Shown here in pieces: positions 7,138 to 49,588 of a DNA stretch of 64,000 bases. Source of the stretch: Gammaproteobacteria bacterium (GTDB taxonomy: Bacteria > Pseudomonadota > Gammaproteobacteria > Ga0077554 > Ga007554); assembly GCA_040183005.1 (NCBI GenBank), contig JAMPIW010000007.1, positions 1,372,188 through 1,436,187 of the forward strand, written 5' to 3'. The notes under the pieces were generated by a model. That model saw nothing but the letters and a program-made list of their open reading frames with translations, ran no database searches and had not been told where the DNA came from. How positions within the stretch are numbered: the stretch's first letter is position 1; every line of letters begins with the position of its first letter. The position numbers and the translations under genes were made by a program.

Positions 7138-9501
7138 GTGGCAGAGCCGCTTCCCGAGGCACTGGAGTTTCTGGACGAACGCGGCAACCCTGTCGCAAGC
7201 CTGGAACTTTACCCGCCCGATAGCCCGGCCAACGCGTTGGTGCGGCTGGAAGATGCGGAAGCCAGGGAGGCCGGAGAGGAGCCGGTGCAGCTCATGGAAG
7301 GGCTGCGCTACGAATACGCTTTTGTCGGCCCCGGCGCTGATAACCTGCGGCTGGAAGAAGAATTTGGTAAGGGCGCGGTCGAGCCAAGCGGCATCAAGGG
7401 GCTGGCACACTGCGGCAGCATCGCCACCGGCCTGAATACCGGGCGGCTGGCTCTGGTGGTGCGCGATGCGGCGGGAGAAATTGCCGGGCGCGCAGCGCTT
7501 GAGGTACGCTCGCGCAAGGTCACGTATCGTTACGACTACCGGCGTATGCTGGAAGACATCACCGATCAATGCGTGGCTCTGCTCATGGAACTGCGCGCCC
7601 CTACGGCCATGCGCGTAGCGCCCGACCCTGGCCGGACACCGGACACGTTGCACCAGCGCTTTGCCTTTTTGCGCGGCCTGCTTGGCTCGCGCCAGTTTCG
7701 GGATGCGCTGCACCGCATTACTACCCACCCCCACCGGCGCTGGGAGCCAGAAGAATCCGTCCACGACATGCGGCGAGGCTTCAAGCCCGACGCCAGAACA
7801 CTGCGCCAGCTTGCCCGTGCGCCCAGGCGGGTGCCGCTCCCGTCCGGCCACCCGCTGGCGAAGATCATTCCATCCCTGCCCGAGCGCATTTCGCTCCACC
7901 GCAACGCCCAGACCGAGGACACGCCGGAAAACCGCTTTGTCAGGTTCGCGCTGCAAACCTTTTCCGGTTTCCTGAACCGGATGCGCCTCAAGCTGGAAGA
8001 AGTCGGCAGCGCTGCCGACACGCGGCTGCAAGCGGAAATCGCCGCGCTGGAAAACCAGCTCGAAACGGCTTTGGCGGCAGACGTGTTCCGCAGCGTTTCC
8101 GACCCGGACATGCTGCCGCTGGGTAGCCCTGTTTTGCAGCGCAAGGAAGGCTATCGCGAGGTTTATCAGGCGTGGCTCAAGTTCGACATGGCGGCGCGCC
8201 TGGTATGGCACGGCGGCGATGACGTGTACGGCGCAGGCCAGCGCGACATCGCCACGCTGTACGAATACTGGGTTTTCTTCAAGCTGCTGGACATCGTTTC
8301 GGCGGTGTTCAAGCTGGAAAAACCTGCCGCCCATGCACTGATCGAAGAAACTGCGGACGGCTTCGGCCTCAAGCTCAAATCCGGCGAGCAACTGGCGTTC
8401 GATGGCGTAACTTTTGGCGGTGCTCGTCCGCTGCGAGTGCGTTTCAGCTACAACCGCAGCTTTTCTCACAATGCCGCGCCGGATCGGGTTGGATCGTGGA
8501 CCGAGCGCATGCGCCCGGACTACTCGTTGAGCCTGTGGCCGGCAGAGTTTTCCGAAGCAGAAGCGGAAGCTCAGGAAATCATGGCGCATGTGCATTTTGA
8601 TGCCAAATACCGCATCGACAACGTGGAGCAGCTTTTTGGGCGCGAGGACGAAAGTTTGGGTGCCGCTGGCGTGAATAGTGACTTGGCTGAAGAAAAGCAG
8701 GAGCAGCGCGAAGGCCGCTACAAACGCGCCGACCTGTTGAAAATGCACGCTTACCGCGATGCCATCCGCCGCACCCAAGGCGCTTATGTGCTCTACCCCG
8801 GCGATTCATCGCGCCAGTGGCAGGGCTACCATGAAATTTTGCCAGGGCTGGGCGCGTTCCCGCTCAAGCCCGGCAACGGCGCACAGGAAGTGGAAAACTT
8901 TATCCGCGAGGTTGTCGCCCACGCATGCAACCGTGCGACTGCGCGGGAGCGCCAGAGCTACCATACCTACCAAACGCAGGAAGCGCCAGCGAGCTATGCG
9001 GTGTTGAGCAAGTTGCCCGAGTTTGATGGCGCTACCCGCAGGCGCGCGCAACCTCCTGCCGAAACGCATGTGCTGGTTGGTTGGTACAAGGACGAGGCAC
9101 ATTTGAAATGGGTGCTGGCCCAGAAGCTATATAACTTCCGCATGGACACGAAAGCTGGCTCGCTACGGCTCACGCCGGAAGTTTCAGGCGCACAGTATCT
9201 GTTGCTGCACAGCTACAAGGGAAAAACGAGTTCCGGCCTTTTCCATGTCGCCAAGGAAGGACCGCGCGTGCTTTCACGAGAAAAGCTGAAGGAAAAGGGC
9301 TATCCCGGCGCACCATCCCAACCTTTCTACCTAGTCTATAACGTAGTGCCAGCGCCCGGATTTGATGGCTACGAATGGGATTACTCGAAACTGCCCGAGC
9401 GCCTGCAAAATCGCCAGTCCGCCGAGCCGCAAACAGTCACGCTCGACGAGTTGATGGCAGTAGCCAAGGAGAACCTGCTGGCTGGCGCTGGGGGCGGCTG
9501 A
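7138..9501 (+). CDS. McrC-like DUF2357 / PD-(D/E)XK nuclease subunit
   Basis: A 787-residue partner of the McrB-like motor. The N-terminal half has the DUF2357 character (YEYAFVGPGAD, then a helical RRYDYR-like region near 130). The C-terminal half carries a PD-(D/E)XK nuclease core: RPDYSLSLW near residue 458, then HFDAKYR near 486, and a conserved KMHAYRDAIRRT helix. The last ~170 residues (from about HVLVGWYKDEAHLKWVL) have a beta-rich PUA/EVE-like look that could read a modified base; that assignment is tentative. The start is GTG directly after the mcrB stop, so expression is coupled. Long antisense ORFs across this GC-rich gene are shadows. Confidence 0.85.
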   Translation: MAEPLPEALEFLDERGNPVASLELYPPDSPANALVRLEDAEAREAGEEPVQLMEGLRYEYAFVGPGADNLRLEEEFGKGAVEPSGIKGLAHCGSIATGLNTGRLALVVRDAAGEIAGRAALEVRSRKVTYRYDYRRMLEDITDQCVALLMELRAPTAMRVAPDPGRTPDTLHQRFAFLRGLLGSRQFRDALHRITTHPHRRWEPEESVHDMRRGFKPDARTLRQLARAPRRVPLPSGHPLAKIIPSLPERISLHRNAQTEDTPENRFVRFALQTFSGFLNRMRLKLEEVGSAADTRLQAEIAALENQLETALAADVFRSVSDPDMLPLGSPVLQRKEGYREVYQAWLKFDMAARLVWHGGDDVYGAGQRDIATLYEYWVFFKLLDIVSAVFKLEKPAAHALIEETADGFGLKLKSGEQLAFDGVTFGGARPLRVRFSYNRSFSHNAAPDRVGSWTERMRPDYSLSLWPAEFSEAEAEAQEIMAHVHFDAKYRIDNVEQLFGREDESLGAAGVNSDLAEEKQEQREGRYKRADLLKMHAYRDAIRRTQGAYVLYPGDSSRQWQGYHEILPGLGAFPLKPGNGAQEVENFIREVVAHACNRATARERQSYHTYQTQEAPASYAVLSKLPEFDGATRRRAQPPAETHVLVGWYKDEAHLKWVLAQKLYNFRMDTKAGSLRLTPEVSGAQYLLLHSYKGKTSSGLFHVAKEGPRVLSREKLKEKGYPGAPSQPFYLVYNVVPAPGFDGYEWDYSKLPERLQNRQSAEPQTVTLDELMAVAKENLLAGAGGG

Positions 9502-20164: not shown

Positions 20165-20184
20165 TCTGTCTGGTAGCGCACATA
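20165..20184. promoter_or_regulatory. TGTGC-N6-GCACA-type operator, copy 1
   Basis: TCTGTCTGGTAGCGCACATA, between the entericidin stop and csbD. It fits the shared consensus TCTGTRCGNTANCGCACATA with two mismatches in the left half-site. Candidate controller of csbD. Confidence 0.5.
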
Positions 20185-20657: not shown

Positions 20658-20759
20658 TTACCCTCCCCTGTTATAAGTTTTCGGCGATCCGAGTCTGAGG
20701 GGCAGCCAGCGATCATTGCCGCCTGATGTCTCCAATATGGTCAGAATTTTCTTTTTCAT
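20658..20759 (-). CDS. Possible 33-residue leader/microprotein
   Basis: A 33-codon ORF with an excellent AAGGAG site eight bases before its ATG. Its end supplies the ribosome-binding site for the Lmo0937-like gene. The sequence (KKKILTILETSGGND at the start) matches nothing I know. It may be a genuine microprotein, or the stump of a shortened gene whose promoter and initiation region have been kept. Confidence 0.4.
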   Translation of the reverse strand: MKKKILTILETSGGNDRWLPLRLGSPKTYNRGG

Positions 20760-20850
20760 TATTTATCTCCTTATCTCCTTGTGAAAATTATACCCCGCAA
20801 ATAGTGAAATTTTACGGCGACACGGCATAAGAGGCGAACTCACCTCTATT

Positions 20851-21441
20851 TCACGGGCGATTTTTTTTCTTCAATTCCGCCGGAAAGCCCTGCAGCAAGT
20901 CCGCCAACTCGTCGGCGTGCTGCTCTTCCACCGCCAATATCCCTTCCAGCATTCGCCTTGTCGTGGGGTCTTGTTCGCCGAGGTACTGGATCATGTCACG
21001 ATAGCTGTCGATGGCGATTCGTTCCGCCACTAGATCCTCTTTGATCATATCGATCAGTGAATCGCCCGCCACGTATTCCGAATGGCTGCGGCTTACCAGG
21101 CTCTCGGGCGCAAAATCCGGTTCGCCACCCAACTGTACGATACGTTCCGCTATCTGGTCGGCATGGCCCTGTTCCTCATTGGCATGTACCAGGAACTCGT
21201 CGGTAATGCTCTTGGAATGAATGCCTTTTGCCATGAAGTGATGGCGCCTATAACGCAGGACGCACACAATTTCGGTGGCCAGTGCGTCGTTAAGTAGTTT
21301 TAGCACCTTTTCCCGGTCCGCGCCATAACCGGCCGTCACGGCGCCTTCCTCTATATGCTGACGTGCTTGCTTGCGTAAGGTCTGGACGTCAGTCAGGAAA
21401 GATTTCTTGGTCACAGGGGTCACCTTTAATCTGTTATTCAA
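20851..21441 (-). CDS. Ferritin-like / bacterioferritin-type protein
   Basis: A 196-residue four-helix protein with a two-half di-iron ligand pattern: ATEIVCVLRYRRHHF (first Glu), HANEEQGHADQIAERI (ExxH), DLVAERIAIDSYRDMI (Glu), and AVEEQHADELADLL (ExxH). The spacing is that of bacterioferritin/Dps-like proteins used for iron storage or peroxide consumption. An extended N-terminus of about 40 residues precedes the fold. It stands alone in the stress cluster. A repeat element follows upstream of its promoter region. Confidence 0.85.
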   Translation of the reverse strand: MNNRLKVTPVTKKSFLTDVQTLRKQARQHIEEGAVTAGYGADREKVLKLLNDALATEIVCVLRYRRHHFMAKGIHSKSITDEFLVHANEEQGHADQIAERIVQLGGEPDFAPESLVSRSHSEYVAGDSLIDMIKEDLVAERIAIDSYRDMIQYLGEQDPTTRRMLEGILAVEEQHADELADLLQGFPAELKKKNRP

Positions 21442-21553
21442 AAATGTGTTAACTGCGGGTTCGCAGACTAGATCTCAAATGGAGCCGTGTCGCATCAGGC
21501 AGAAACTACTGCTGAATTTCATATCCAACAGTGAGTCGCCCCTAACTATTTAT

Positions 21554-21630
21554 CCCAAATAACCCATTAGCCCGTCATTCCCGCCTGCGCGGGAATGACG
21601 CAGTTTTGTGCGAATGGATTATTTGGGTTT
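21554..21630 (-). repeat. Miniature element family A, short copy
   Basis: A 77-bp element with near-perfect terminal inverted repeats (CCCAAATAA.. / ..TTATTTGGG) enclosing a 20-bp dRS3-like palindrome ATTCCC-N8-GGGAAT. Compared with the copy at 27124-27302 it is inverted and lacks the central ~100 bp. It lies between the ferritin-like and BON genes. Confidence 0.75.
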
Positions 21631-21635
21631 ATCTC

Positions 21636-21947
21636 TCATTTAAGCCGCATGTCGTCCTTGATGGATTTTACACCCTTGACGGTGCGTGCCATCTCAATCG
21701 CTTTTTGTTTGCTGGCCTCGGAACTCACAAAGCCACTCAATTGAACTACACCCTTAAATGTTTCAACATTGATCTCCATCGATTTCAACGAAGGTTCACC
21801 GAAGATTGCTGCCTTTACTTTGGTGGTGATAACGGTGTCATCAACGAATTCTCCAGTACCTTCCTGAGTTGACGTAGATGCGCAACCCATGGCAGAGACC
21901 AATATGATTGCAAAGAAAAAAGCAGTAATGTATTTTAGTATTTTCAT
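21636..21947 (-). CDS. BON-domain lipoprotein
   Basis: A 103-residue lipoprotein: a hydrophobic signal, a lipobox ending at the Cys of SAMGCAS, then one BON domain (TVITTKVKAAIF, then INVETFKGVVQLSGFV and KGVKSIKDDMRLK). BON domains bind phospholipid or anionic surfaces at the outer membrane, as in OsmY and DolP. ATG 21947 is preferred because GGAG is nine bases away; an ATG at 21962 is too close. Confidence 0.9.
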   Translation of the reverse strand: MKILKYITAFFFAIILVSAMGCASTSTQEGTGEFVDDTVITTKVKAAIFGEPSLKSMEINVETFKGVVQLSGFVSSEASKQKAIEMARTVKGVKSIKDDMRLK

Positions 21948-22035
21948 AGCCATAATCTCCATATTTACATGATGTTATTATTAGAAATTACCGTAACCGA
22001 TGATTATTTTCATGAAAAGATATTAATTAATCCAT

Positions 22036-22191
22036 TCATATTTTTCCCATAAGTAAAAGCACGATCACGATTATCAATATCAGCCCTAGCGTTCCGCTCG
22101 GAGCGTAACCCCATCCTTTACTGTGTGGCCAAGTCGGGATAGCGCCTATCAGCATCAGTATCAGGATAATCAACAACACGGCTCCCAACAT
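22036..22191 (-). CDS. DUF3309-family tiny membrane protein
   Basis: A 51-residue protein with a hydrophobic helix, the central DUF3309 motif IPTWPHSKGWGYAPSG, and a second hydrophobic helix ending in GKI. AGGAGAAGG precedes the start. Widely found in Proteobacteria near stress genes; function unknown. Confidence 0.92.
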   Translation of the reverse strand: MLGAVLLIILILMLIGAIPTWPHSKGWGYAPSGTLGLILIIVIVLLLMGKI

Positions 22192-22281
22192 TTTCCTTCT
22201 CCTAATGACGTAACCTACAACGGTTAAACGGTTATTCTCTTACAATTTCCTCATAAAGAGATATCCTGCTTTATCGAATGC

Positions 22282-23310
22282 TCAGCGCGGCGCAATGCTG
22301 CCATTGTCGTCGGAAAGAATAATTTCCACGCGCCGATTCAATTGACGACCGGCAGTAGTTTCGTTACTGGCAACAGGGTACTCCTCACCATAACCACGTG
22401 TGCTTACACGGTCGCCGCTGACTCCCATGCGCATCAAAGTATTGCGCACGGCATTGGCACGACGATCAGAAAGATCCTGGTTGTGGTTGCTACTGCCCGT
22501 ACTGTCAGTGAAACCCTCTATCAGGGCTTTACGTTCAGGGTATTCTTTGAAAAAATCGGCAAGTTTCTGCACACTATTGACACCTCCCGATCTAAGCTCC
22601 GCCTTGTTGGTATCGAACAACACGTCACCAAGAGTAATAACCAGGCCGCGCTCTGTTTTCTTGGCATTCAAGTCTTTAAGTTCTGTCTCCATCTGACTGA
22701 CTCTGGCATTGGCGGCAGCCAATTCTGCTGTTTTCTGATCTGCGCCTTGCTGCGCAGTTATCGCTTGTTGCTTGGCCACATCGGCTTCCACCGTTTGAGC
22801 CTCAAGGAGGGCCTTGCCGCGTTCGGTATCGGCGTTAGCAGCCGCTAATGCGGTGGCTGCCTGATTGGCTGCCGCCTCCGAAATCACCGCCTGCTGCTTG
22901 GCTGTCTCCTGCGCAGTTGCCATCCCCTGTTTGGCGGCATCGGCTTCCGCCGTTCGTGCCTCAAGACGGACTTTGTCGCGTGCAGTACTGGCGTTAGCGA
23001 CAGCCAGCTCGGCCGCTTTCTGTTTGGCTGTTTCCTGCGCAATCGCCACACGTTGCTTGGCTAGGTAGGCGAGATTATCGACCACTTCGCGGTCTTCGCG
23101 CTTGCTCTGAGCTTCGTTGGCTTTGTCCAGCGCTTTACCAGCCTGTTGCAATTCGACTGGAGCAAGATTGGTAACATCCGGATTGCTCTGTGCCGCACTG
23201 TAGCCGCTGCGGGCATCGTCCAGCACAGCGTTTTTCTCAGGCTGCATGCTGCATGCTGCAAGCGCGGTACTGGCTAACAGTATAGTAGGTAATATATAAT
23301 TAATTTTCAT
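22282..23310 (-). CDS. OmpA-family lipoprotein with DUF4398 and coiled-coil repeats
   Basis: A 342-residue outer-membrane lipoprotein: signal peptide with lipobox ALAAC, a DUF4398-type segment, then a long alanine-rich coiled coil made of about three related ~40-residue repeats (AQETAKQKAAELAVANA-like), and a C-terminal OmpA peptidoglycan-binding domain (VLFDTNKAELRSGG, then GFTDSTGSSNHNQDLSDRRA and RGYGEEYPVASN). It should tether the outer membrane to peptidoglycan. ATG 23310 has GGAA upstream. The preceding gene is another DUF4398 lipoprotein 42 bp away, so the two form an operon. Confidence 0.93.
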   Translation of the reverse strand: MKINYILPTILLASTALAACSMQPEKNAVLDDARSGYSAAQSNPDVTNLAPVELQQAGKALDKANEAQSKREDREVVDNLAYLAKQRVAIAQETAKQKAAELAVANASTARDKVRLEARTAEADAAKQGMATAQETAKQQAVISEAAANQAATALAAANADTERGKALLEAQTVEADVAKQQAITAQQGADQKTAELAAANARVSQMETELKDLNAKKTERGLVITLGDVLFDTNKAELRSGGVNSVQKLADFFKEYPERKALIEGFTDSTGSSNHNQDLSDRRANAVRNTLMRMGVSGDRVSTRGYGEEYPVASNETTAGRQLNRRVEIILSDDNGSIAPR

Positions 23311-23352
23311 AATAAATTCCTTTATGTTCATTCTTGGTAATGTGATTCGCGC

Positions 23353-23754
23353 TTACTTGGTGGTTCGTTTAATCTCTTCACGCAGAACGCGATTTGATTC
23401 TTGTGCATCATCGACCGCCTTCTGCGCCTTTGCCAAACCGGCCTTTGTTTCAGCAAGCTTGGCATCAAGCTGCGCTTGTTCTGCCAATCGTTTAGCAAGC
23501 GGGTAATCTTTCGCATCCATTGCCCGCTCTGCACCTTCCATCTTTTCCATGGCGGATTTGAGCTCCAGCGGTGCAAACTCATTGCCGCCACTTCTGGTTG
23601 CACTCGTCACTGCCGCCTTGGAAACCGCGAGTTGCTCTGTGGGGGCTGGAATACTTGCGCATCCAACCATAAAGATTGTAGTAACAGCGATTACTGTTGG
23701 TACGCCGACCCAGTTCATCATTCGAGTCGATCTGGGGTTAGTAAGTATCTTCAT
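23353..23754 (-). CDS. DUF4398 lipoprotein
   Basis: A 133-residue lipoprotein: a long basic N-region, a hydrophobic signal and a lipobox ending MVGCAS, then a helical DUF4398 domain (FAPLELKSAMEKMEGAERAM, followed by an A/K/E-rich coil). It parallels the N-terminal half of the OmpA-family protein downstream, suggesting the two interact or arose by duplication. The start is placed at 23754; 23766 and 23757 are also in frame. An operator copy lies about 210 bp upstream. Confidence 0.85.
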   Translation of the reverse strand: MKILTNPRSTRMMNWVGVPTVIAVTTIFMVGCASIPAPTEQLAVSKAAVTSATRSGGNEFAPLELKSAMEKMEGAERAMDAKDYPLAKRLAEQAQLDAKLAETKAGLAKAQKAVDDAQESNRVLREEIKRTTK

Positions 23755-23962
23755 GATCATCTCCATCCAATAAAGTTAAATATCGTTTAATTGCCAACAA
23801 CTGAACATCTATACCACGGGGGCTACTAACCCCTTCGATCGGTGCCACCTGAGATGACATGCCATCTTGATGCCATTCCGGCACAAGACCATGATTTTGA
23901 ACAGCCATCTTCTCGTCGATCTAAACCTTTGATGGTAAGACTGACCCTAATACCAAGCGCCG

Positions 23963-23982
23963 TCTGTACGGTGACGCACATA
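23963..23982. promoter_or_regulatory. TGTGC-type operator, copy 2
   Basis: TCTGTACGGTGACGCACATA, about 210 bp before the DUF4398-ompA operon. A TATAAT-like hexamer directly adjoins its right end on the plus strand. A good consensus match. Confidence 0.55.
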
Positions 23983-24009
23983 TAATGAATAGAGGTAATG
24001 CCTGGGCGC

Positions 24010-24132
24010 TTACCATGCACTCGAACGACACGGGACATAATGGGTGCCAACACAATCACGGAAAATAATCTGGGCGTCCCATTCCTTCACCTGAGCCCCA
24101 AGATTTTGCGTATAAGCATTGTTCGCTCCCAT
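24010..24132 (-). pseudogene. Possible 5' stump of a coiled-coil stress protein
   Basis: A 40-codon ORF with a strong AAGGAG seven bases before ATG. Its first 22 residues (NAYTQNLGAQVKEWDAQI) resemble the start of the sll1863-type coiled-coil stress proteins; it then diverges into non-coding-looking sequence and stops. Likely a gene that lost its 3' part. The remaining DNA between 23755 and 24170 shows no other gene. Confidence 0.35.
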
Positions 24133-24170
24133 GAGTTACTCCTTAAGGGGGGGGGCGTTACAATTCGCCG

Positions 24171-24581
24171 TTACTTGGCTAACTTCACCACCAATTGATT
24201 TTCCACTCCCTTTACTTCCGCCACAGCACCCGCTATTTCTTTGGCTCTATCACTACTTTGCTGCGAGTCAACCGACCCGCTCAGTGTAGTCACGCCTTTC
24301 GTGGTGTCGACATTGATCTGAAGAACGCTCAGTCCAGGCTCCGCTAGAATGGCCGCTTTTACTTTAGCAGTGATCGCAGCGTCATCAATCGCCACACCGG
24401 CCTTGTCACCCTGATCACCAATATCTTTTGATGTCTCGTCCATTTTGTCGCCGGCTTTTTCTGTCGCTTGGTCTATTGACTTACCGGCCGTTTCTGCCGG
24501 ACCTTTTTTGTCGCATGCGGAAATCCCAAAAACAAGAATCATTGACGCCCCTGCTAATAGAACTCTTTTTGAAATATTCAT
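24171..24581 (-). CDS. BON-domain lipoprotein with helical linker
   Basis: A 136-residue lipoprotein. The lipobox ends at GISAC, followed by an acidic/basic helical linker (KSIDQATEKAGDKMDETSKD), then a BON domain (AITAKVKAAILAEPG, VDTTKGVTTLSGSV, KGVENQLVVKL). AAGGAG stands before ATG 24581; the longer open frame to 24749 has no support. An operator copy sits about 105 bp upstream. Confidence 0.9.
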   Translation of the reverse strand: MNISKRVLLAGASMILVFGISACDKKGPAETAGKSIDQATEKAGDKMDETSKDIGDQGDKAGVAIDDAAITAKVKAAILAEPGLSVLQINVDTTKGVTTLSGSVDSQQSSDRAKEIAGAVAEVKGVENQLVVKLAK

Positions 24582-24685
24582 CGTTACTCTCCTTATGTTA
24601 ACTATGTGATTTAAAAATTTATCCGCAAGCTTTGTCCAAGCTGCGTGCGGAGTGCTATGCAGCATACGGCACAAGACGGAAATGC

Positions 24686-24705
24686 TCTGTGCGGTATCCC
24701 ACACA
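24686..24705. promoter_or_regulatory. TGTGC-type operator, copy 3
   Basis: TCTGTGCGGTATCCCACACA, upstream of the BON lipoprotein gene. The dyad is CTGTGCGG / CCCACACAG. A second, more degenerate dyad-like stretch lies at about 24644-24672. Confidence 0.55.
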
Positions 24706-24760
24706 GGCGGCGCGGCGGGGTGTTTTATGGTTCGATTGTTTAGACTCAAAGTACATTTGA

Positions 24761-26885
24761 CTAGCCATTATGACCGCGGGAGAGTTCTGATATGCCGGTT
24801 CTAAGTAGCTTGGTGTACTCCTCCGGAACCAACGGTCGGCTGAAATAGTAACCCTGTGCCTCGCCGCAGCCCGCGGCCCGGAGGAAAGTGAGCTGTTCTG
24901 GTGTTTCAACGCCCTCGGCGCTGACCCGTTTGTTGAGATTATTACCCATCCCGATCATGGCGTTAACTATAGTAGCGTCGTCCGGATCAGTGGTGATGTC
25001 GCGCACGAATGACTGGTCGATTTTCAGGGTATCGATCGGAAAGCGTTTCAGGTAACTTAAACTGGAATAGCCGGTGCCGAAATCATCGATGGCAAGCCGC
25101 ACACCCATGGCTTTGAGTGCATCAAGCACGGTAATCGTGGACTCGCCATCCTGCATGAGAACGCTTTCGGTCAGTTCGATCTCGAGATGACCCGGCTCCA
25201 GGCTAGTCTCTTTGAGGATGTCACGAACGCCATCGAGAAAGTCATTGCTGCGGAATTCTACTGCAGAGATGTTGATCGCCACGGAGGGTGGCCGAAGGCC
25301 AGCTTCCACCCAAGTGCAGATTTGTCGGCATGCTTCGCGGAGCACCCACCGGCCGATCGGTACAATGAGACCACACTCTTCGGCGATTGGCACAAACTTC
25401 TCGGGTAAGAGGAGCCCGCGCACCGGGTGCAGCCAGCGGATGAGTGCCTCAGCGCCGGTAATCCTGCCTGTTTCGAGATTGATTCTGGGTTGGTAATGCA
25501 AGACAAACTCCTGCCTTGCCATGGCACGACGCAGGCTGGCCTCAAGGAATTGCCGCTCGACGACCCGGTCGTTCATGTCTTGCTTGAAAAACTGGTAATT
25601 GTTGCGCCCATTTTGCTTGGCGTGGTACATCGCGGCGTCGGCATTTTTGATCAGAGTTTCCGCATCCTCGCCGTCACTGGGGTAGATGCTGATACCAATG
25701 CTCATAGTGATAGTGAGATCGTGTCCCGCGATACTATGATGATCTTCCAGCACCGAGATGATATTTGACGCGCGGCGTGCCGCATCTTTTGCGTGCTCGA
25801 TGTCTGAAAGCAGCACTATGAATTCATCCCCACCCTGGCGGCTGACTGTATCCGAACTACGTACACAAGTAATCAAGCGATCCGCAACCGACTGCAGCAA
25901 TTTGTCGCCAATCAGATGACCCAATGAGTCATTGATGTTTTTGAACATATCCAGATCCAGAAACAGAACCGCCAATTGTTTGCGGTGCCGACGGACAACG
26001 GAAATCGCTTGTTTAAGCCGATCATTTAATAGCACGCGATTGGGCAAATCAGTGAGGAAATCGTGTTGTGCTAAATAAGACATTTTGAGCACCATCGCCC
26101 GCGCCTCGCTGACATCGTGGAAAACCATCACGGCGCCGATAACGCGGCCACCACGGTCGTGGATGGGCGCGGCAGAATCTTCTATGGGCAATTCAAACCC
26201 ATCGCGCTTGATCAGGATGCAGTTCGCGCTGAGGCTGACGGGTTTGTTTCGCTGCATGGCCAGCTCTATTGGACTGCGGGCGGGTTCGCGTGTGACACTA
26301 TCGACGATCTGGAGCACATCGGCAAGCGGCCGGCCGACCGGTCGCCTCTTCGCGCGACCAGCCGGTCATGCGCTCCGCGACCAGATTGAGATAGGTGACA
26401 TTGCTGGCGATGTCGGCACTTATTACAGCATCGCCAATGGAATTAAGCGTGACTTGAGCGCGCTCCCTTTCGACAAACAGCGCCTCTTCCGCCACCTTGC
26501 GCGCAATCACGTTGCGTAGAACGTGAGACAATGAGTAACCGTCGATGTGACCTTTTAGGAAATAATCCTGCGCGCCATGCTGTACGGCTTGTTGTGCGAT
26601 ATCTTCTTGATCCAAGTCACTGAGAATCAGAATCGGGACATCACACGCGATCAAATAAAACCTATCGAAGGTCTCGATACCTTGGCTATCGGGCAGGGAT
26701 AGATTGAGCAAGACGGCCTTAATCCCTCCCCTATTGAGCCGTTCGAGGCCATCGGAGAGGGTTGCAACCCATTCGATAGTGAATGGACCATATCTTGCGT
26801 CAGAGAGCGCATCCCTGACCAACTTGGCAGTAGCGGGGTCACACTCGATGAGAAGTACCCTTTCTTCCGTATTGCCCATGCTCAT
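24761..26885 (-). pseudogene. Receiver-PAS-GGDEF-EAL regulator split by a frameshift
   Basis: Two consecutive frames together encode one protein. The first (from ATG 26885) has a receiver domain and the start of a PAS domain ending ...MTGWSREEATGRP. The second resumes with VLQIVDSVTREPARS and continues through PAS, GGDEF (GGDEF intact in RQGGDEFIVLL) and EAL (EALIRW intact). The break coincides with a tandem GGCC duplication at 26328-26335; removing four bases restores GRPLADVLQIVD. The receiver has Asn in place of the phospho-acceptor Asp (LLNLSLPDSQG), though the Lys in YFLKG is kept. If the shift is real, only a receiver-PAS stub is made, unless the second part starts at an internal GTG. 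A sequencing or assembly error is possible. Confidence 0.85.
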
Positions 26886-27084
26886 AAAACTCCTTTGTAA
26901 CAAGATCCAAGCATACACCTCCAACGAGCTTATTATTATGAGGAATTATCGTTCTGCTATCGGACAGTCGTCATGGCGTAATGCGTGGTACCGAATATAA
27001 ACCGCCTCTCTTGTCCGCACATACATCCATCAATTTGGCATGGCTCACCAGCACGATTATTGTGCAATGAGAAATCTGTCGTGT

Positions 27085-27104
27085 TCTGTGCGGTAGCATA
27101 CATA
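27085..27104. promoter_or_regulatory. TGTGC-type operator, copy 4
   Basis: TCTGTGCGGTAGCATACATA, about 200 bp upstream of the receiver-PAS-GGDEF-EAL gene. It directly adjoins the miniature element at 27124. Confidence 0.5.
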
Positions 27105-27123
27105 CCGAAAAAGAGTCAGCGTT

Positions 27124-27302
27124 AAACAAAAATAATCCATTGGCACAAAACTGCGTCGTTCCCGCTCAGTCGGGAATCCAGATGATTAAAAAATCTCCCG
27201 CGAAGCGGGACAGCATCGCGGTCTCGTCAGCTTCGCGGGATGTTCGTCCTTGTTAAATTCCCACCTGTTCGGAAATGATGGGTTAATGGATTATTTGGGT
27301 TT
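27124..27302 (+). repeat. Miniature element family A, full-length copy
   Basis: About 179 bp with terminal inverted repeats (AAACAAAAATAATCCATT on the left, AATGGATTATTTGGGTTT on the right). Internally it has a dRS3-like GTTCCC-N8-GGGAAT and a second dyad built on CCCGCGAAGCGGGA / CTTCGCGGGA. It has no coding capacity. Similar copies are at 21554-21630 and, interrupted, at 49589-49956. Confidence 0.8.
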
Positions 27303-27330
27303 AACTGAAAGCGTTGGTTTTATAACGCCC

Positions 27331-27362
27331 AAAAAAAGGCCCTGCGAGGGGGGTCGCAGGGC
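27331..27362 (-). terminator. Strong intrinsic terminator (minus strand)
   Basis: A perfect 9-bp GC-rich stem (GCCCTGCGA / TCGCAGGGC) with a C6 loop, followed on the minus strand by a C and seven Ts. It has no long gene directly upstream, only a 22-30 codon ORF, so it ends a short transcript. Confidence 0.85.
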
Positions 27363-27384
27363 TAAGGGGGGGTAAATCGTCCGC

Positions 27385-27477
27385 CTAACTAAATATAGGC
27401 ACGGTAGGCACAGCCATCATCTCGATATAACGGCTATTGTCGCGGCCTCCCACAGTCACGCTCCTAGAGCCATTCAT
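27385..27477 (-). ncRNA. Short transcription unit: small RNA or microprotein gene
   Basis: A short unit defined by an operator at 27540-27559 (perfect TGTGC-N6-GCACA), a further copy at 27687-27706, and the strong terminator at 27331-27362. Within it is a 30-codon ORF from ATG 27477 without a ribosome-binding site, or a 22-codon ORF from GTG 27453 preceded by AGGAG at seven bases; the shared C-terminus reads SRYIEMMAVPTVPIFS. I recognise neither an RNA family nor a peptide family. The rest of 26886-27915 holds only the operators and the miniature element listed separately; 27707-27915 shows nothing clear. Confidence 0.4.
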
Positions 27478-27539
27478 GTGTTTATTTATTTTAAAGTTGA
27501 TCACAATAATGACGTTTTGACCGACAGAACCCCTGCGGG

Positions 27540-27559
27540 TGTGTGCACTAATGCACAAC
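27540..27559. promoter_or_regulatory. TGTGC-type operator, copy 5 (perfect dyad)
   Basis: Its core TGTGCACTAATGCACA (27542-27557) is an exact inverted repeat, the most symmetrical copy in the window. It lies 65 bp before the short unit at 27385-27477. Confidence 0.55.
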
Positions 27560-27686
27560 GTTCAGAAATCACCTTTAGATGCTCCACGACTATGGCTTTA
27601 ATCTGCTCATTTTAAATCAGACAAACCCACTCCAAGGAAAACTTCCACTGCCACTGATATCTTTATACCCCTCTCACACAAGACGT

Positions 27687-27706
27687 TCTGTGCACTGACA
27701 CACATA
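27687..27706. promoter_or_regulatory. TGTGC-type operator, copy 6
   Basis: TCTGTGCACTGACACACATA, 130 bp beyond copy 5 in the same leader region, which suggests two operators for the short unit. Confidence 0.5.
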
Positions 27707-27915
27707 GCGAGGGCAGGTTGAGGCTTTCCTGTTTCAACGGCTATTTAACTACTTCTTGGGCTTTGTCGATCTCGTAGACAAATTCAGTGAGACAGAAAAA
27801 ACTCACTCAAAAATAGAAGAAAAAGCGGGGTAGCACCTTTCCGCCGCATGTGAAAGGTTACCCTCTTAAACCCGATGCATTATTGTCTTGACTGATGAGT
27901 CCACTATAGTCTCAC

Positions 27916-30063
27916 TCAATCCTTTGCTTTATCTTCGACAACGTTTTTTGGCGGCACGAAAAAATCCAGAGGTGCCACCAAAAAACGTGCCAGCAATGCC
28001 TTGAGCAGTGTTGGCCATTTGGTGAAGCGCACTTGGCGCGCGCGTAATGCCACGAACAGCGCCAGGGAAAAGCTAACTAACAGGTTTACCGCGCCAATAC
28101 TGAGTACGCCCAAGGTAGAAATAACGGCGGTTTGCCATGTTATATAATGTTCCAAGCCGACTAATGATATAGCGAAATTGGCGGCAGAAAAGGTAATGTG
28201 GCGAATATCTATGGGTAGGCCGAGCAGGAAACCCAGGGTGCCCATGCTGCCGAGTAGTATGCCAAAGTAAAAGTTGCCCATTAATCCGCCCAGGTTATTT
28301 TCAATATAACCTGCAAAGTTTCTTAGCCGAGCTTCGCCAAGCAAGCGATGTAGCCAGCGTAACTGCGCTATACGTGCTGGAATGTGAGCGTAAACTGCTT
28401 TGTTATCATAATAGCCGGATATTAATCCCGACAAAAATAAACACACACCAGCAATAGCCGCATAAAAGAGTGCGAGACTGTGAAAAGGGTCTATGTCATG
28501 CAGCAAATGCTCAGCTTTTTCCGGTGTTACCAGATGCTGGCCTTGCAGGTAAAAATATCCCCAGGCAATCAGGTAGGCCATCGGAAAGGCGATGATGATA
28601 TTGCCTAACACCGCCACGAATTGGGTGCGTATGACCTTTACTATTAGCTCAACCAGGCTATCAAGGTCGATGTTTCGGCCGTCGCGGCTCTGTAGTCCGG
28701 CGGCAATGCGGGAAGCGGTCATGGCCGGCTGCTTGGTTGCAACCGTGAAATGCAGCACGTGGATCAGCATGAAGCCCAGAGAATAATTCATGCTGAACAG
28801 AAAGGCCTCCACCAACGGTGCGGCGCGCAAGTAGGATGCGAGAATCTTGAGCATCGCCATGAAGCTGATGATGAAACCGGCGCCGGCTGCAGAGCGGAAC
28901 ATCGCGGCATACTCGCTGCGGGTATCCGCGACGTAGTGCTCGCCGGTGCGGCTGGCATTTTCCGTGATGTTTCGGGCAAGCAGATCAATGTTGCTGGCGA
29001 ACAGCTCACGCACCGCGTATTTGCGGTTGTGGGCCTCGATCAACTCCAGGCCTAGCGACAAGGCTGCACCCCTCCGCTCAGAGGGTGCAGTGGTTTCGCC
29101 ACATTCTGGGATAGAGCTGGGCAGATCGTGGGCTACATCTATCAGCGCCAGCAGTTTCCGCAACCGGTCGATGCTCTGGGTGAGTCGTCCCAGCAAATAG
29201 GTGAGCGCTACACTGGTGCCCTGACGCAGCGCGTTTTTGCGAATTTTGGTGACGACCATCTCGCACTGATCCAGCATCACCAACAAATGTTTGGCATCAT
29301 CGGGCGTCGCCGCGCTGCCATCCAGGAAGCGGGCATAACCCTCGGCAGGCGTGGCTGGTTTGTTGGCTACCGGCGTCGAGTCGCCATCCAAAAATCGGGC
29401 GTAGCCGTTAAGGTATTGGTGTACCTCAAAATTTTGCATCAAAAACGGTGATTCGAAGGTTTCGAGATCCGGATTGTTACGAATCAATTCAGGTTCCAAC
29501 CCCATCGCACTGATGCGGTAAGACAATGTCTGGATGGACTCCAGCAGTTGCACCATCGTTTTTTGTTGGGCTGACGTGTCCCCATTCTCTCCCCCGTCAG
29601 CGATGGCCAAGGTATCGAACAGCGCCAACCAGTCCGCCGCAGGCACGCCGCTTATCCACAGGTAATCAGTCTTTGCGGGGAGTATCTGATCCAAACAGTC
29701 ACGCATATAGCGATCATCCACTGCGGGTGGCAGCATGCGATATGAGAGGCGCTGGAACAACTCAGTGAAAAAACCGTTGCTGGAGAGGATTCCCGTATCG
29801 GTATAAAGGTTGGTCTGATGCCGTGCCGAGAACACGCGCAACAGATAGTGACGCAGCGCAATGGCATGACTATGATTGCCTTGAAGCAACTGAGTGAGGG
29901 TGCGGACGTTGGCGGCGGCCCGATCAATCTGATGAGGCTTCGCTGGGCGCAATTTCTGGACGAGATCCGCCAGACCGTCAATTACGTCGGTGTCCGGGTG
30001 AGCGGCGATACGTTCGAGCAGGTCCAGCATTCGGAAAGTTCGGGGCGCCACGCGCATGCTCAT
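27916..30063 (-). CDS. Gcr-type 'site-specific recombinase' family membrane protein
   Basis: A 715-residue protein of the betaproteobacterial family annotated as site-specific recombinase (Gcr, SpecificRecomb). The N-terminal ~330 residues are helical and soluble, with two near-duplicate stretches GYARFLDG(D/S) around residues 215-255. The C-terminal half has several clear membrane spans (for example FIISFMAMLKILASYL, FAISLVGLEHYI, LLVSFSLALFVALRA). No tyrosine or serine recombinase motif is visible, so the recombinase label is historical; a membrane role is more likely. It stands 23 bp from the peroxidase gene upstream and could be co-transcribed with it. Confidence 0.85.
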   Translation of the reverse strand: MSMRVAPRTFRMLDLLERIAAHPDTDVIDGLADLVQKLRPAKPHQIDRAAANVRTLTQLLQGNHSHAIALRHYLLRVFSARHQTNLYTDTGILSSNGFFTELFQRLSYRMLPPAVDDRYMRDCLDQILPAKTDYLWISGVPAADWLALFDTLAIADGGENGDTSAQQKTMVQLLESIQTLSYRISAMGLEPELIRNNPDLETFESPFLMQNFEVHQYLNGYARFLDGDSTPVANKPATPAEGYARFLDGSAATPDDAKHLLVMLDQCEMVVTKIRKNALRQGTSVALTYLLGRLTQSIDRLRKLLALIDVAHDLPSSIPECGETTAPSERRGAALSLGLELIEAHNRKYAVRELFASNIDLLARNITENASRTGEHYVADTRSEYAAMFRSAAGAGFIISFMAMLKILASYLRAAPLVEAFLFSMNYSLGFMLIHVLHFTVATKQPAMTASRIAAGLQSRDGRNIDLDSLVELIVKVIRTQFVAVLGNIIIAFPMAYLIAWGYFYLQGQHLVTPEKAEHLLHDIDPFHSLALFYAAIAGVCLFLSGLISGYYDNKAVYAHIPARIAQLRWLHRLLGEARLRNFAGYIENNLGGLMGNFYFGILLGSMGTLGFLLGLPIDIRHITFSAANFAISLVGLEHYITWQTAVISTLGVLSIGAVNLLVSFSLALFVALRARQVRFTKWPTLLKALLARFLVAPLDFFVPPKNVVEDKAKD

Positions 30064-30086
30064 GATGATCCGCCTTACGTTGCGGC

Positions 30087-31451
30087 CTACAGCGCCCGCA
30101 TGAAGGCTACAAGATCCTTCTTCTCCTGTTCATTCAGCTTCACTTCCAACACGAGGTTGAAGAACTCCACCGTATCCTCCAGCGTCAGCAGGCGATCATC
30201 GTGCAGATACGGCGGCGAATCTTTGATGCCTCGAAGCGGGAAGGTCTTGATCGGGCCGTCGGCTGACGCTCTGCGGCCGTTAATTGTGACCTCCTTGAAG
30301 AATCGCTCTACCTTCAAATTGTGCATGGAGTTGTCGGTGTAGTACGGTGGAGTATGGCAAGTCGAGCACTGACCCTTGCCAAAAAAGATTTCCTGACCGC
30401 GTATCTCGCTCTCACTGGCTTTGGCGGGATTGAGCTTGCCGAAGACGTTGAGCTTCGGCGCGGGCGGAAAGTCGAGCAGCGCCTGAAACTCCGCCATGAA
30501 ATGCACTTGGCTACCGCGTTCGAGAATGTTGGTGCCTTTGCGTGTCGCGTCGGCCGGGATACCGTCGAAGTAGGCGGCTCGCTGTTCGAACTCGGTAAAA
30601 TCTTCCACTGTTTTCAGGGCACGCTGTGAACCGAATAAACGCTGAACATTCACGCCGCGCAGCGATGGCGTGTCGATGCGATGGCGATGCTCGTTGGGCC
30701 GAATGTCGCCGACCGTATGAGTGGAGGCGTTCGTATGTCCGTTAGCGTGGCAGTCGAAACAGGCAACGCCCGAATGGGCCTTCAAACTACGGCGGTCTTC
30801 CGTGGCATTGAACTGCTGCTGGGGAAACGGCGTAACCAACAAGCGCAATCCTTCGAGTTGTTTGGGATTGAGGATGTCTTTGAATAATGCGTTGAAGTTG
30901 CTGAGCGTTACCAGTTTCCCTTGCGAAACGTCGCCCAGATCCGGCCGCGTCGTCAGATAGATTGGCGCAGGGAACTCAGGCATGAAATGGTTCGGCAAGT
31001 CGAAGTCGAGATCGAAGCGAGCCAGATCCCGATCGGTCTGCTTCTTCGTTTCCTCGATGAGAAATTTGGGAAAGATCATGCCGCCCGCTTCGTGATGAGG
31101 ATGCGGCAACGGCAGAAAGCCGGCCGGCCAGAACTGCTTTTCCTTGACTTCCTCCGGCGACAAGGCGGCGAGTTTCTCCCAAGTCATGCCATCAGCCAAC
31201 TTGACGCGCACGCCCTCTTGCACCGGCTTGCCACGCGACATGACTGTTCCCTTGGCCGGACGATCAGCAAGGTTGTAGCGTTTTGCGAGCAAAGCCTGTT
31301 GGCGCTCTGCGAACTTTGATTTCTCCGCTTCAAGGCGTTTTGTCAGCGTGGAGAAGTCTTCATCGGCGGCCGAAGCTGTCAGTGTGAAGCAGACAACCGC
31401 AGTGGCAGGCAGTGCGGCCAGAAACCAGCGGGTTCGAGACAAATATGACAT
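30087..31451 (-). CDS. Dihaem cytochrome c peroxidase / MauG-family protein
   Basis: A 454-residue periplasmic protein with a signal peptide (cleavage near ASA, residue 28) and two haem-binding CxxCH motifs: CFDCH in HSGVACFDCHANGHT near residue 230, and CSTCH in GKGQCSTCHTPPYYTDNSMHN near residue 357. The arrangement is that of the CcpA/MauG superfamily, reducing peroxide with electrons from c-type cytochromes or performing MauG-like oxidation. It is larger than classical CcpA (~330 residues) owing to an N-terminal extension of about 150 residues. Confidence 0.88.
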   Translation of the reverse strand: MSYLSRTRWFLAALPATAVVCFTLTASAADEDFSTLTKRLEAEKSKFAERQQALLAKRYNLADRPAKGTVMSRGKPVQEGVRVKLADGMTWEKLAALSPEEVKEKQFWPAGFLPLPHPHHEAGGMIFPKFLIEETKKQTDRDLARFDLDFDLPNHFMPEFPAPIYLTTRPDLGDVSQGKLVTLSNFNALFKDILNPKQLEGLRLLVTPFPQQQFNATEDRRSLKAHSGVACFDCHANGHTNASTHTVGDIRPNEHRHRIDTPSLRGVNVQRLFGSQRALKTVEDFTEFEQRAAYFDGIPADATRKGTNILERGSQVHFMAEFQALLDFPPAPKLNVFGKLNPAKASESEIRGQEIFFGKGQCSTCHTPPYYTDNSMHNLKVERFFKEVTINGRRASADGPIKTFPLRGIKDSPPYLHDDRLLTLEDTVEFFNLVLEVKLNEQEKKDLVAFMRAL

Positions 31452-31628
31452 GGTTGACTCCTTCTGAATTAGTTTACCTGGTTCTCGATTTTGGGTTTTT
31501 CTACAGCCTCAATGCTTCGACTGAGCAACGCGCCGTTTATTGGTCGTGCTCTCTACAAGCAGTGGATGGAGAAATTGCTGTGATCGCCCAAGTTATTTAC
31601 CCTCGATTCCTTGACCTCCCCAGACGCA

Positions 31629-32243
31629 TTACCCGCCGAGTGTCTGATCCTGGCCTTTAAACCAGGCGAGTGCGTCCTCAAAATGCTGCGGATCAAAATC
31701 TGGCCAATATTCATCTCTAATATAAAAGTCCGCATAAACCGATTGCACCGGAAGAAAACCGCTCAACCGGCGTCCTCCTCCCCAGCGCACAATCAAATCC
31801 AGACGTGAAACTTCAGATGAACGCAGGCCGCCGTTTTTAAGACCGGCCAGATCCCATTCCCAGCCATAGTTGACGAGTAGATTCACCTTCATTCCGACAC
31901 CCTGGCGCTGCCGGAATTCTTTTAAGACATTAGGGAATTGCGTCGATGTCTCATCGCCGACAACCAGCAGAGCCGCCCCACGGCGTACAATCTCGAAAGC
32001 GAATGCAACACAGGCCTCACTGAATGCCTGCTTCTGAATGTAAGGCCGCTTGGTGTTGTCCTGGGTAAAGCCGTAGATGGAAACTTCCTTGATCCCGCAT
32101 TCTTTACATTTTTCATACAGCTGCAACCCTGGGTTGATACCATGAGCATATCCGGCTTCTTTGCGCAGACCACGATCCACGGCCCAGCGGCGATTTCCAT
32201 CGGGAATGAAGCCGACATGACACGGGATATTATTTTTCACCAT
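31629..32243 (-). CDS. Short cis-prenyltransferase (UppS-like)
   Basis: A 204-residue isoprenyl diphosphate synthase homologue. Visible: the pyrophosphate-binding start HVGFIPDGNRRWA with the essential Asp, YGFTQDN (SxxN-like region), and the C-terminal DLIVRWGGGRRLSGFLPVQSVYADFY in place of the usual RTSGE..RxSxFxxWQ, so several binding residues are altered. It is about 40 residues shorter than housekeeping UppS and is not beside cdsA or dxr, so it is an accessory paralogue that may make a shorter or different prenyl chain. GAAGAAGG precedes ATG 32243. Confidence 0.82.
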   Translation of the reverse strand: MVKNNIPCHVGFIPDGNRRWAVDRGLRKEAGYAHGINPGLQLYEKCKECGIKEVSIYGFTQDNTKRPYIQKQAFSEACVAFAFEIVRRGAALLVVGDETSTQFPNVLKEFRQRQGVGMKVNLLVNYGWEWDLAGLKNGGLRSSEVSRLDLIVRWGGGRRLSGFLPVQSVYADFYIRDEYWPDFDPQHFEDALAWFKGQDQTLGG

Positions 32244-32391
32244 TGCAAGCCTTCTTCCAACATGATGTGAGGCCATACGATACGAAGATTATCATTCGGA
32301 TCCGTGCACGCCAGTTCAATGAATAATTTTCTGTCATCCTGCGATGGACGTCAGACCTAAAATACTGGAGACCCTCGTCGGCAAAGCGACA

Positions 32392-33216
32392 TCAGGTCTT
32401 AAGGAAAGCTAGCAGGTCATCGTTGAGTTGATCCTTGTGCGTGTCCGCAAGGCCGTGGGGTGCGCCCGCGTAGATCTTCAGGGTCGCGTTCTTGACCAGC
32501 TCAGCTGAGCGGAGAGCCGCGGCGCCGATCGGCACGATCTGGTCGTCGTCGCCATGGAGGATCAGCGTCGGCACGTCGAACTTCTTGAGGTCTTCGGTGA
32601 AATCCGTCTCGGAGAACGCCTTGATGCAGTCGAAGGTGTTCTTGTGACCGGCCTGCATGCCCTGGAGCCAGAACGAGTCGATCATGCCCTGCGAGACCTT
32701 GGCGCCGGGCCTGTTGGCCCCGAAAAAAGGACCGCTGGCGAGATCCTTGTAAAACTGCGAGCGGTCGGCCAGGGAGGCGAGGCGTATCTCGTCGAACTTC
32801 TCCAGCGGCAAGCCGCCAGGATTGGCCGCAGTTTTCAGCATCAGCGGCGGCACGGCGGAAATCAGCGCGGCCTTGACCACCCGCTTCGTGCCGTGACGGC
32901 CGATATAACGGGCAACTTCGCCGCCGCCCATCGAAAAGCCGATCAGAACGGCGTCCTTCAGGTCGAGCGCTTTGATGAGCTCCTCGAGGTCATCGGCAAA
33001 GGTATCCATGTTGTTGCCATTCCAGGGCTGGCTCGACCGCCCATGGCCGCGCCGGTCATGGGCGATACAGCGATAGCCGTTGGCGGCCAGGAACAGCATC
33101 TGCGCCTCCCAGCTATCCGCACTGAGGGGCCAGCCGTGGCTGAACACTACAGGCTGTCCTGCGCCCCAGTCCTTGTAATAGATCTGCGTACCGTCTTTCG
33201 TCGTGATCGTACTCAT
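32392..33216 (-). CDS. Alpha/beta hydrolase, non-haem chloroperoxidase type
   Basis: A 274-residue alpha/beta hydrolase. The nucleophile elbow is GFSMGGGE (Ser near 97), the acid is in [10 protein letters not shown] (Asp near 225), and the His is in [10 protein letters not shown] (near 255). The [13 protein letters not shown] start is typical of cofactor-free haloperoxidases and arylesterases. The peroxidase activity of this family is often incidental; the natural substrate is usually an ester. A monocistronic gene; the 295 bp upstream to 33511 shows no gene. Confidence 0.9.
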
Positions 33217-33511
33217 CGTTTGCCTCCTTTTTTTGTCGGCGGGGGTCCCCGTCGACCTTTCGTGTCCGTCCGAGTGTCCGAATTATTTAAATTGCCTCGC
33301 CTAATTATTTGAACTCGCGCCTGCTTCCATGCCCGCGAAGCAGGCTTTCAGGGATGAAAGGCATCGGGTCGGAATCCGTATGACTCGATAATGGCCGACC
33401 CGACTAATCTCGTAATTATGGTGCGCGACGTAATGTGTGGTTCGCGATACTCACCCTAGCCTACCCCACCTCAGGAATCGAAAGCATCCATGGTTCGGTG
33501 GGGAATATCTT

Positions 33512-33904
33512 TCATTTGCCGGAGGTCAAAGGTGCTCCTGGTTTATTACTCATATCGCGGATAGCTTTTCGGCGGTATAAGCCAAAGGCTGCGGCAGCCA
33601 TTACCAATAAGCCGACAATGAGCTGATTCCCAGCCAACGTGGTAAGAGAACCACTTATAAGCATTCCATTGCCGAAAAGATATGAAGCGGCGATCAGCCA
33701 GGATGCCAACGCAACCAGGACAAATTCTATCCAAGCGTTGGGACGAAGGATTGCTGCAATAGCCACCACTGTCAAGAATACGCCGACGATCAGCGAATTA
33801 TTGAAAAGTTTAAAGTCCCCCATGGTTCGGGGAAGTATAAAAGGAGAAACGATTAACCAAAAACCCAGAAACAGTATTACCATATCCTGCCATCTTTTTT
33901 TCAT
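33512..33904 (-). CDS. SPW-repeat membrane protein
   Basis: A 130-residue protein with four hydrophobic helices. The first helix carries the SPW-type motif (WQDMVILFLGFWLIVSPFIL, with Phe in place of the repeat's Trp), and the third (VLVALASWLIAASYLFG) is a related repeat. Function unknown; common in envelope-stress gene neighbourhoods. Confidence 0.8.
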   Translation of the reverse strand: MKKRWQDMVILFLGFWLIVSPFILPRTMGDFKLFNNSLIVGVFLTVVAIAAILRPNAWIEFVLVALASWLIAASYLFGNGMLISGSLTTLAGNQLIVGLLVMAAAAFGLYRRKAIRDMSNKPGAPLTSGK

Positions 33905-48095: not shown

Positions 48096-48420
48096 GGCCG
48101 ACCTCTATTAAAGCGCGAATGGGTCTGGCGGATCGCGGAGCCGAAAGGTGCAGGCTGCACCTCACCTACGATATACGTTACACGCTCACCCTGCACAAAA
48201 ATACATGCACTTTTTCTTGCAGGCGCCGAGGGGTAAACTGCCACATTTATGGCATTCCCAGCCCGCATGTGGGGTGCGAGACCCTTCTGTGGGCAAAAAA
48301 CCTGACGGCATTGCCGTCTATGGGCACCATTACCGCCCGTTCGTGGGTAAGCGTTGCAAGCCATCTTTGGCAATCAACCTGATAGGCACGGCTCGATCAT
48401 AGCGGTCAAGCCCTCCGTTC

Positions 48421-48440
48421 TCCGTGCGTTATCACACATA
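48421..48440. promoter_or_regulatory. TGTGC-type operator, copy 9
   Basis: TCCGTGCGTTATCACACATA, in the leader between the Crp/Fnr-family gene and the triple-PAS kinase, 40 bp past the regulator's stop. Possible link between the regulator and the kinase gene. Confidence 0.45.
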
Positions 48441-48480: not shown

Positions 48481-49242
48481 TTAACCGTGACTGGCTGAGG
48501 GAAGTTCCTGGCGATTACGTACATCGCACAGCAAACGATCGAATTCTTTTTTGACCACTGCATAGCATTCACACACGCGCGACTCCAGGCCCGACCGATC
48601 AAGCACGGTGATGTGGCCACGGCGATAGCGAATGCACCCCGCTTGCTGCAAATGCCCGGCGGCCTGGGTGATGCCTTCACGCCGCACGCCGAGTATGCCG
48701 GCAATTAATTCCTGCGTCATGGCCAACTCGCCCGAGGGCAAACGATCAAGGGTCAGCAACAGCCAGCGGCACAGTTGCTGCTCCACCGCATGGTGGCGAT
48801 TGCATACGGCCGTTTGGGATATCTGTGTAATCAGCGCCTGGGTGTAGCGCAGCAACAAATGCTGCATGACACCAGCGCGGCGCCCCCCGGTGCGATTGAA
48901 TTCCTCCATCAGCAACCGCGCCTTCAGTCGGTAGCCATAACCGCCGGTAGACACGATGGCTCTGCTGGGTGTGGTATCCCCCCCCATGAACACCGAAATG
49001 CCGACTACGCCCTCATTGCCCACCCCCGCGATTTCAGACGAAGCGCCGGTCTCCATCACGTAGTGCAGTGACACGATGGCGGTCGTCGGAAAATATACGT
49101 GCTGCAACTGGCCGCTGGATTCATAAAGGACATCGCCCAGCGGCATCGTGACCAGCTCCAGATGGGGGGCGATATGCTCGAATTCAGCCGTGGGCAATGC
49201 CGCGAGAAGATGGTTTTGGTTGGGACTCTGCGGGCTATCCAT
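48481..49242 (-). CDS. Crp/Fnr-family transcriptional regulator
   Basis: A 253-residue regulator: an N-terminal cyclic-nucleotide-binding-like barrel (LELVTMPLGDVLYESSG, HVYFPTTAIVSLHYV), a long dimerisation helix (LLLRYTQALITQISQTAVCNRHH), and a C-terminal Crp-type winged helix with recognition helix GVRREGITQAAGHL. The Arg-Glu pair of the Crp recognition helix is retained, but the position of Crp Arg185 is Gln. There is no Fnr-type Cys cluster and no full cAMP-binding RxxS set, so the ligand is unknown. Its fold matches the dyad geometry of the operators found in this window. Confidence 0.88.
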   Translation of the reverse strand: MDSPQSPNQNHLLAALPTAEFEHIAPHLELVTMPLGDVLYESSGQLQHVYFPTTAIVSLHYVMETGASSEIAGVGNEGVVGISVFMGGDTTPSRAIVSTGGYGYRLKARLLMEEFNRTGGRRAGVMQHLLLRYTQALITQISQTAVCNRHHAVEQQLCRWLLLTLDRLPSGELAMTQELIAGILGVRREGITQAAGHLQQAGCIRYRRGHITVLDRSGLESRVCECYAVVKKEFDRLLCDVRNRQELPSASHG

Positions 49243-49463: not shown

Positions 49464-49588
49464 TTAGGCGTGTTACCGCACATAGCTTTTCACCCACGGC
49501 ACCTTGGCGAGTTGCTTCTCGACACCCCGGGCACTCAACGGGGAGAGCAAGTCGCGCATATCAAATGACGAATGACGGTTGTTTTCAT

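Follow-up and report, generated by a model that had tools for sequence, protein, structure and literature searches.

What does a bacterial transcription unit encode when an operator is followed on the same strand, about 350 bases on, by a strong terminator, with no recognisable gene between them? This question is raised by a minus-strand unit running from 27706 to 27331 in a 64,000-nucleotide stretch of gammaproteobacterial DNA (here called the window). The first-pass annotation of this DNA regarded the unit as too small for a usual protein, and indeed no normal-sized gene lies between operator and terminator. The features on which the following argument is built are listed below.

27687–27706 (−): operator TATGTGTGTCAGTGCACAGA, assigned by weight matrix to a predicted Crp/Fnr-type class II activator family
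27662–27667 (−): −10 hexamer TATAAA at a gap of exactly 19 nt from the operator, whose centre falls at −41.5
27655 ± 2 nt (−): predicted transcription start (A), placed from the position of the −10 hexamer
27331–27655 (−): predicted transcript of ~325 nt, deduced from promoter and terminator
27445–27655 (−): orphan body of the transcript, lacking a homologue and a supported ORF
27540–27559 (−): palindrome around TGTGCATTAGTGCACA, outside the operator family, an RNA hairpin within the predicted transcript
27385–27453 (−): 22-codon ORF with a GTG start; the open frame reaches 27558 with a TTG start
27321–27445 (−): 3′ region of ~125 nt, homologous to L098:12832-12945 (−) of genome G028, which belongs to the same class and another family
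27332–27362 (−): intrinsic terminator, GCCCTGCGA-CCCCCC-TCGCAGGGC followed by CT7, with a perfect 9-bp stem
27085–27104 (−): next operator downstream of the unit (score 24.1), belonging to the RR-PAS-GGDEF-EAL gene
24761–26924 (−): RR-PAS-GGDEF-EAL gene, flanking the unit downstream
27916–30063 (−): SpecificRecomb gene (715 aa), flanking the unit upstream
48481–49242 (−): Crp/Fnr-type regulator gene (HTH_Crp_2), the proposed activator, with its own operator at 49465–49484

Operator, predicted promoter and proposed regulon

The operator of the unit was scored with a weight matrix trained solely on sites from other genomes and reached 19.8 bits, with no such site expected in 8 × 64 kb of Markov sequence. 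It carries three mismatches and ranks below most other operator sites of the window. A second operator copy had been proposed at 27559–27540. With the same matrix this palindrome scores 0.7 bits, a level at which ~92 sites are expected per 64 kb, so that the unit has one operator and the two-operator model was rejected. The hexamer at gap 19 from the palindrome is TCAAAA, which departs from the −10 pattern described below, and within the predicted RNA the palindrome would form a 6-bp hairpin.

The operator motif, TATGTGCGNTANCGCACAGA, is directional, and its sites in the window are oriented with the gene that comes after them. Among 97 oriented sites, collected from islands that surround Crp-type genes in ~20 genomes of the class (870 kb in total), 29 have a TAnnnT hexamer at gap 19; other gaps mostly yield 0–3 such hexamers, with a maximum of 6. 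The unit has TATAAA at this gap, its last base departing from strict TAnnnT. With a −10 box at gap 19, the operator is centred at −41.5, where class II Crp/Fnr activators bind, and judged by sequence the phasing of the motif is that of an activator promoter. Since the −10 box at 27667–27662 belongs to the upstream operator, the predicted transcript is ~325 nt long instead of the 150–200 nt suggested earlier.

Searching the 3.33-Mb genome for places with at most two mismatches to the first-pass pattern returned 13 (two of them appear on both strands in the list), and 10 of these lie around the window, within ~52 kb of contig C7. In the window, operators precede genes for CsbD (named from sequence, not by family search), BON, DUF4398, Ysc84, OmpA, RR-GGDEF and the Crp-type regulator; because CsbD, BON, DUF4398, Ysc84, OmpA and RR-GGDEF genes sit behind them, the regulon looks stress-related. 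The Crp/Fnr-type gene is itself linked to the family by its upstream site, and its protein has no cyclic-nucleotide-domain match in Pfam. Genomes in which a homologue of the Crp gene was found contain a median of 16 motif matches, versus 2 in the others (n = 32; Mann-Whitney p = 4e-6, kinship ignored). The protein of 48481–49242 is thus most likely the regulator of this operator family, as suggested by sequence. A literature search that covered few subscription papers found no described CsbD/BON/Crp regulon that fits. The idea of a short, stress-regulated unit therefore gains support from the operator family before stress genes and from the activator-type phasing, while its second half, a dedicated sRNA or peptide, is neither demonstrated nor refuted by our analysis.

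The TATGTGCGNTANCGCACAGA regulon and its gap-19 −10 boxes structure an accessory island of stress genes that spans window positions 20165–49484 and extends beyond (L035:8096, 13246), and similar Crp/Fnr-type stress islands occur in several families of the class. The 20.7–33.9 kb block that holds the unit (window 20700–33900) is accessory, because G002, a genome of the same genus, lacks it at the matching place and has its CsbD cluster right beside Ysc84 there. A scan of recombinase relatives found no operators near them in their neighbourhoods. At 27121–27305 lies a ~185-bp MITE-like element whose inverted ends are 21 nt long (GTTAAACAAAAATAATCCATT) and enclose hairpins; the genome has seven more partial matches to it, most of them within this island. 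The RR-PAS-GGDEF-EAL gene is split by a frameshift near 26300–26360 (a sequencing error or a pseudogene), and in G028 it is a single 714-aa ORF. Just downstream of the crp gene, a ~290-nt operator-driven leader of a hybrid kinase occupies 48095–48440, and its promoter and parts of the leader resemble counterparts in G002, G028 and G088. Another tiny operator-driven unit (48440, terminator at 48321) was rejected as an sRNA: its relatives keep the operator as a hybrid-kinase promoter, not the terminator.

A probable promoter-terminator module and its counterpart in a relative

The textbook terminator reported earlier on this strand is present, from 27362 to 27332. No other perfect 9-bp stem with T6 or a longer T run behind it exists in the window, and 20 Markov-simulated windows contained none. 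The homology of the 3′ region to G028 extends past this structure: the local alignment over ~125 nt beats all 300 shuffles, and p is ~0.009 when the terminator is left out. A two-sequence covariance model built from it matches, under strict filters, only the places in the window's own genome (G000) and in G028 among 369 class genomes, and it found no further place in 0.88 Mb of fetched islands. The terminator is the only RNA structure shared with G028. Its stem contains one compensatory pair between the two sequences, which at n = 2 is compatible with chance, and the covariance analysis recommended in the first-pass annotation thus yielded no evidence for an sRNA.

The G028 locus is syntenic, with an operator, a DUF2892 gene, the homologous 3′ end with its terminator, the next operator and an intact RR-PAS-GGDEF-EAL gene, and the RR-PAS-GGDEF-EAL genes of the two genomes are 80–82% identical. 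The G028 unit (L098:13551-12842) therefore occupies the same slot under an operator of the same family. It differs in its content: it carries the gene of a 132-aa YgaP-like/DUF2892 membrane protein (PF11127, E = 1e-12), whereas the window unit has no protein gene. A regulon member in G088, a BON gene, is closed by a terminator of similar type, ACCCCCCTTAGGCCCTGC...GCAGGGCT7; judging by this likeness, operator, gene and terminator appear to travel as modules.

These observations suggest an explanation to which we assign an even chance, namely that the unit is a promoter-terminator module of the regulon whose gene was lost or replaced and which is probably still transcribed. A Crp/Fnr-type activator, most likely the 48481–49242 protein, would bind the operator centred at −41.5 and recruit RNA polymerase to the TATAAA box, and transcription would run from ~27655 to the terminator, ending at 27331. 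A stress gene, which such modules normally carry, would be missing here, its slot being held in G028 by the YgaP-like/DUF2892 gene, and what remains would probably be a stress-induced, largely non-coding RNA of ~325 nt with no demonstrated role. The operator family, its −41.5 phasing, the clustering, the Crp-gene association, the terminator and the 3′ homology were computed; binding by the Crp protein, transcription and the direction of change (gene loss rather than gain) are inferred. Loss or replacement of a gene is simpler than an sRNA or a peptide, because in the sole syntenic relative found the slot is taken by a protein gene.

In favour of this explanation, the ~220-nt body, from the −10 box to the 3′ region, has no DNA relative beyond very short matches in 185 genomes and no Pfam match in any frame, and blastn found no relative of the unit in plasmids and phages. 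Several observations speak against it. Compared with the DUF2892 gene of G028, the body aligns at shuffle level, with no trace in DNA or protein; the window's own genome contains no DUF2892 copy. A DUF2892 pseudogene was rejected, as the body has no coding remnant. With a neighbouring gene ~80% identical, recent decay should show, and the explanation therefore needs replacement, or the loss of a different gene. Moreover, the promoter and terminator look intact, which would be needless in a dead unit. The three mismatches of the operator and its low rank in the window also count against the explanation. As to polarity (a loss here or a gain in G028), a single relative is the only guide.

Small RNA, micropeptide or leader

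The presence of a predicted promoter and terminator and the lack of a supported ORF are also what would be expected of a regulatory sRNA. A functional trans-acting stress sRNA under the Crp-type regulator, whether the full ~325-nt transcript or a 3′ piece processed from it, is the main rival, though one that we consider doubtful. Its C-rich stretches (UUUACCCCCCCUUAG and the C6 loop of the terminator) might act on G-rich ribosome-binding sites. The C-runs are kept in G028, but terminators with such runs also stand behind protein genes in G028 and G088, which indicates that the runs are not sRNA-specific. The folding evidence is likewise divided: the 3′ 211 nt, terminator included, fold with z = −3.0, while the full 325-nt transcript is barely better than shuffles (z = −2.0), and G028 lacks the strong 11-bp hairpin seen in the window. 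No conserved sequence or covarying structure of the body was found in 185 relatives, the terminator alone being common to G028, and the narrow reach of the 3′ covariance model also argues against an sRNA. A check of 40 possible targets gave one weak candidate, the DUF5670 leader, uncorrected. Rfam returned nothing at threshold in the unit, with a best match of 19.5 bits versus a gathering score of 41; the sub-threshold matches (suhB/mmgR, beta-proteobacterial toxic sRNA and anti-hemB) were rejected, as they fall far under their gathering scores and all end on the terminator.

Another genome suggests that the regulon can contain sRNAs. In G146, a predicted 115-nt RNA (L139:8197-8311, minus strand) lies directly downstream of a Crp-type gene under the same class II operator (8343–8362). 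It folds with z = −7.6 into two long hairpins with a CUCCCCCU loop, is unrelated in sequence to the window unit and has no Rfam match; on this modelled structure, it makes a stronger sRNA candidate than the window unit does. A broader proposal takes the window unit as a functional stress-induced sRNA, directly activated by the uncharacterised Crp/Fnr-type regulator. On this view the regulon, an accessory stress island of several proteobacterial families, would have taken up mutually unrelated sRNAs with C-rich loops time and again, a second instance being the 115-nt RNA next to crp in G146. We regard this as unlikely.

A stress-induced micropeptide, of 22–30 codons ending at 27385 or read from the longer TTG frame, is improbable. 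The 22-codon ORF described earlier does exist, from a GTG at 27453 to 27385 with AGGAG 7 nt upstream, and its codon score is borderline, being equalled by 5.5% of random ORFs (p ~0.055). Codon conservation, the other check recommended for it, was not found: only the last ~5 codons and the stop align with G028 (n = 2), and the start region differs there. ORF length in the unit is at chance level, given that the longest ORF in random stretches of 337 nt has a median length of 39 codons, and Pfam, NCBIfam and plasmid searches with the ORFs of the unit returned nothing. One weak tblastn hit on a GMC oxidoreductase (GGRDNSRYIEM versus GGKDNSIYIQM, E = 0.015) gives the peptide no support from flanking sequence. 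It was also rejected as a gene remnant, because the flanking frame is mismatched and the DNA homology to G028 explains the region better.

Least probable is a long, terminator-attenuated leader of the RR-PAS-GGDEF-EAL gene, which lies on the same strand behind the terminator, as that gene has its own operator at 27085–27104 and the upstream slot in G028 is a complete protein gene.

Comparison with known Crp/Fnr systems

While the unit may be merely the shell of a lost gene, following it up brought to light a clearly delimited class II Crp-type regulon of CsbD, BON, DUF4398, OmpA and signalling genes in several families, offering a testable operator, promoter phasing and a candidate regulator. 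If functional, the RNA of the unit would be an sRNA arm of this stress regulon. FnrS and Spot 42 are sRNAs under Crp/Fnr control, and the unit resembles them in its shortness, Crp/Fnr-type site, intrinsic terminator and lack of a clear gene; it differs from them in that any Hfq site or target would be hypothetical, its body is not conserved and it has no Rfam match. The motif TATGTGCGNTANCGCACAGA matches neither the E. coli CRP nor the FNR consensus, and its candidate binder is an uncharacterised Crp/Fnr-type protein. In architecture, the unit corresponds to class II Crp/Fnr promoters such as those with E. coli FNR and CRP sites at −41.5: the site is centred at the same position relative to the predicted start, the half-sites are palindromic and of the TGTG...CACA type, and a −10 box is present, with no need for a good −35 box.
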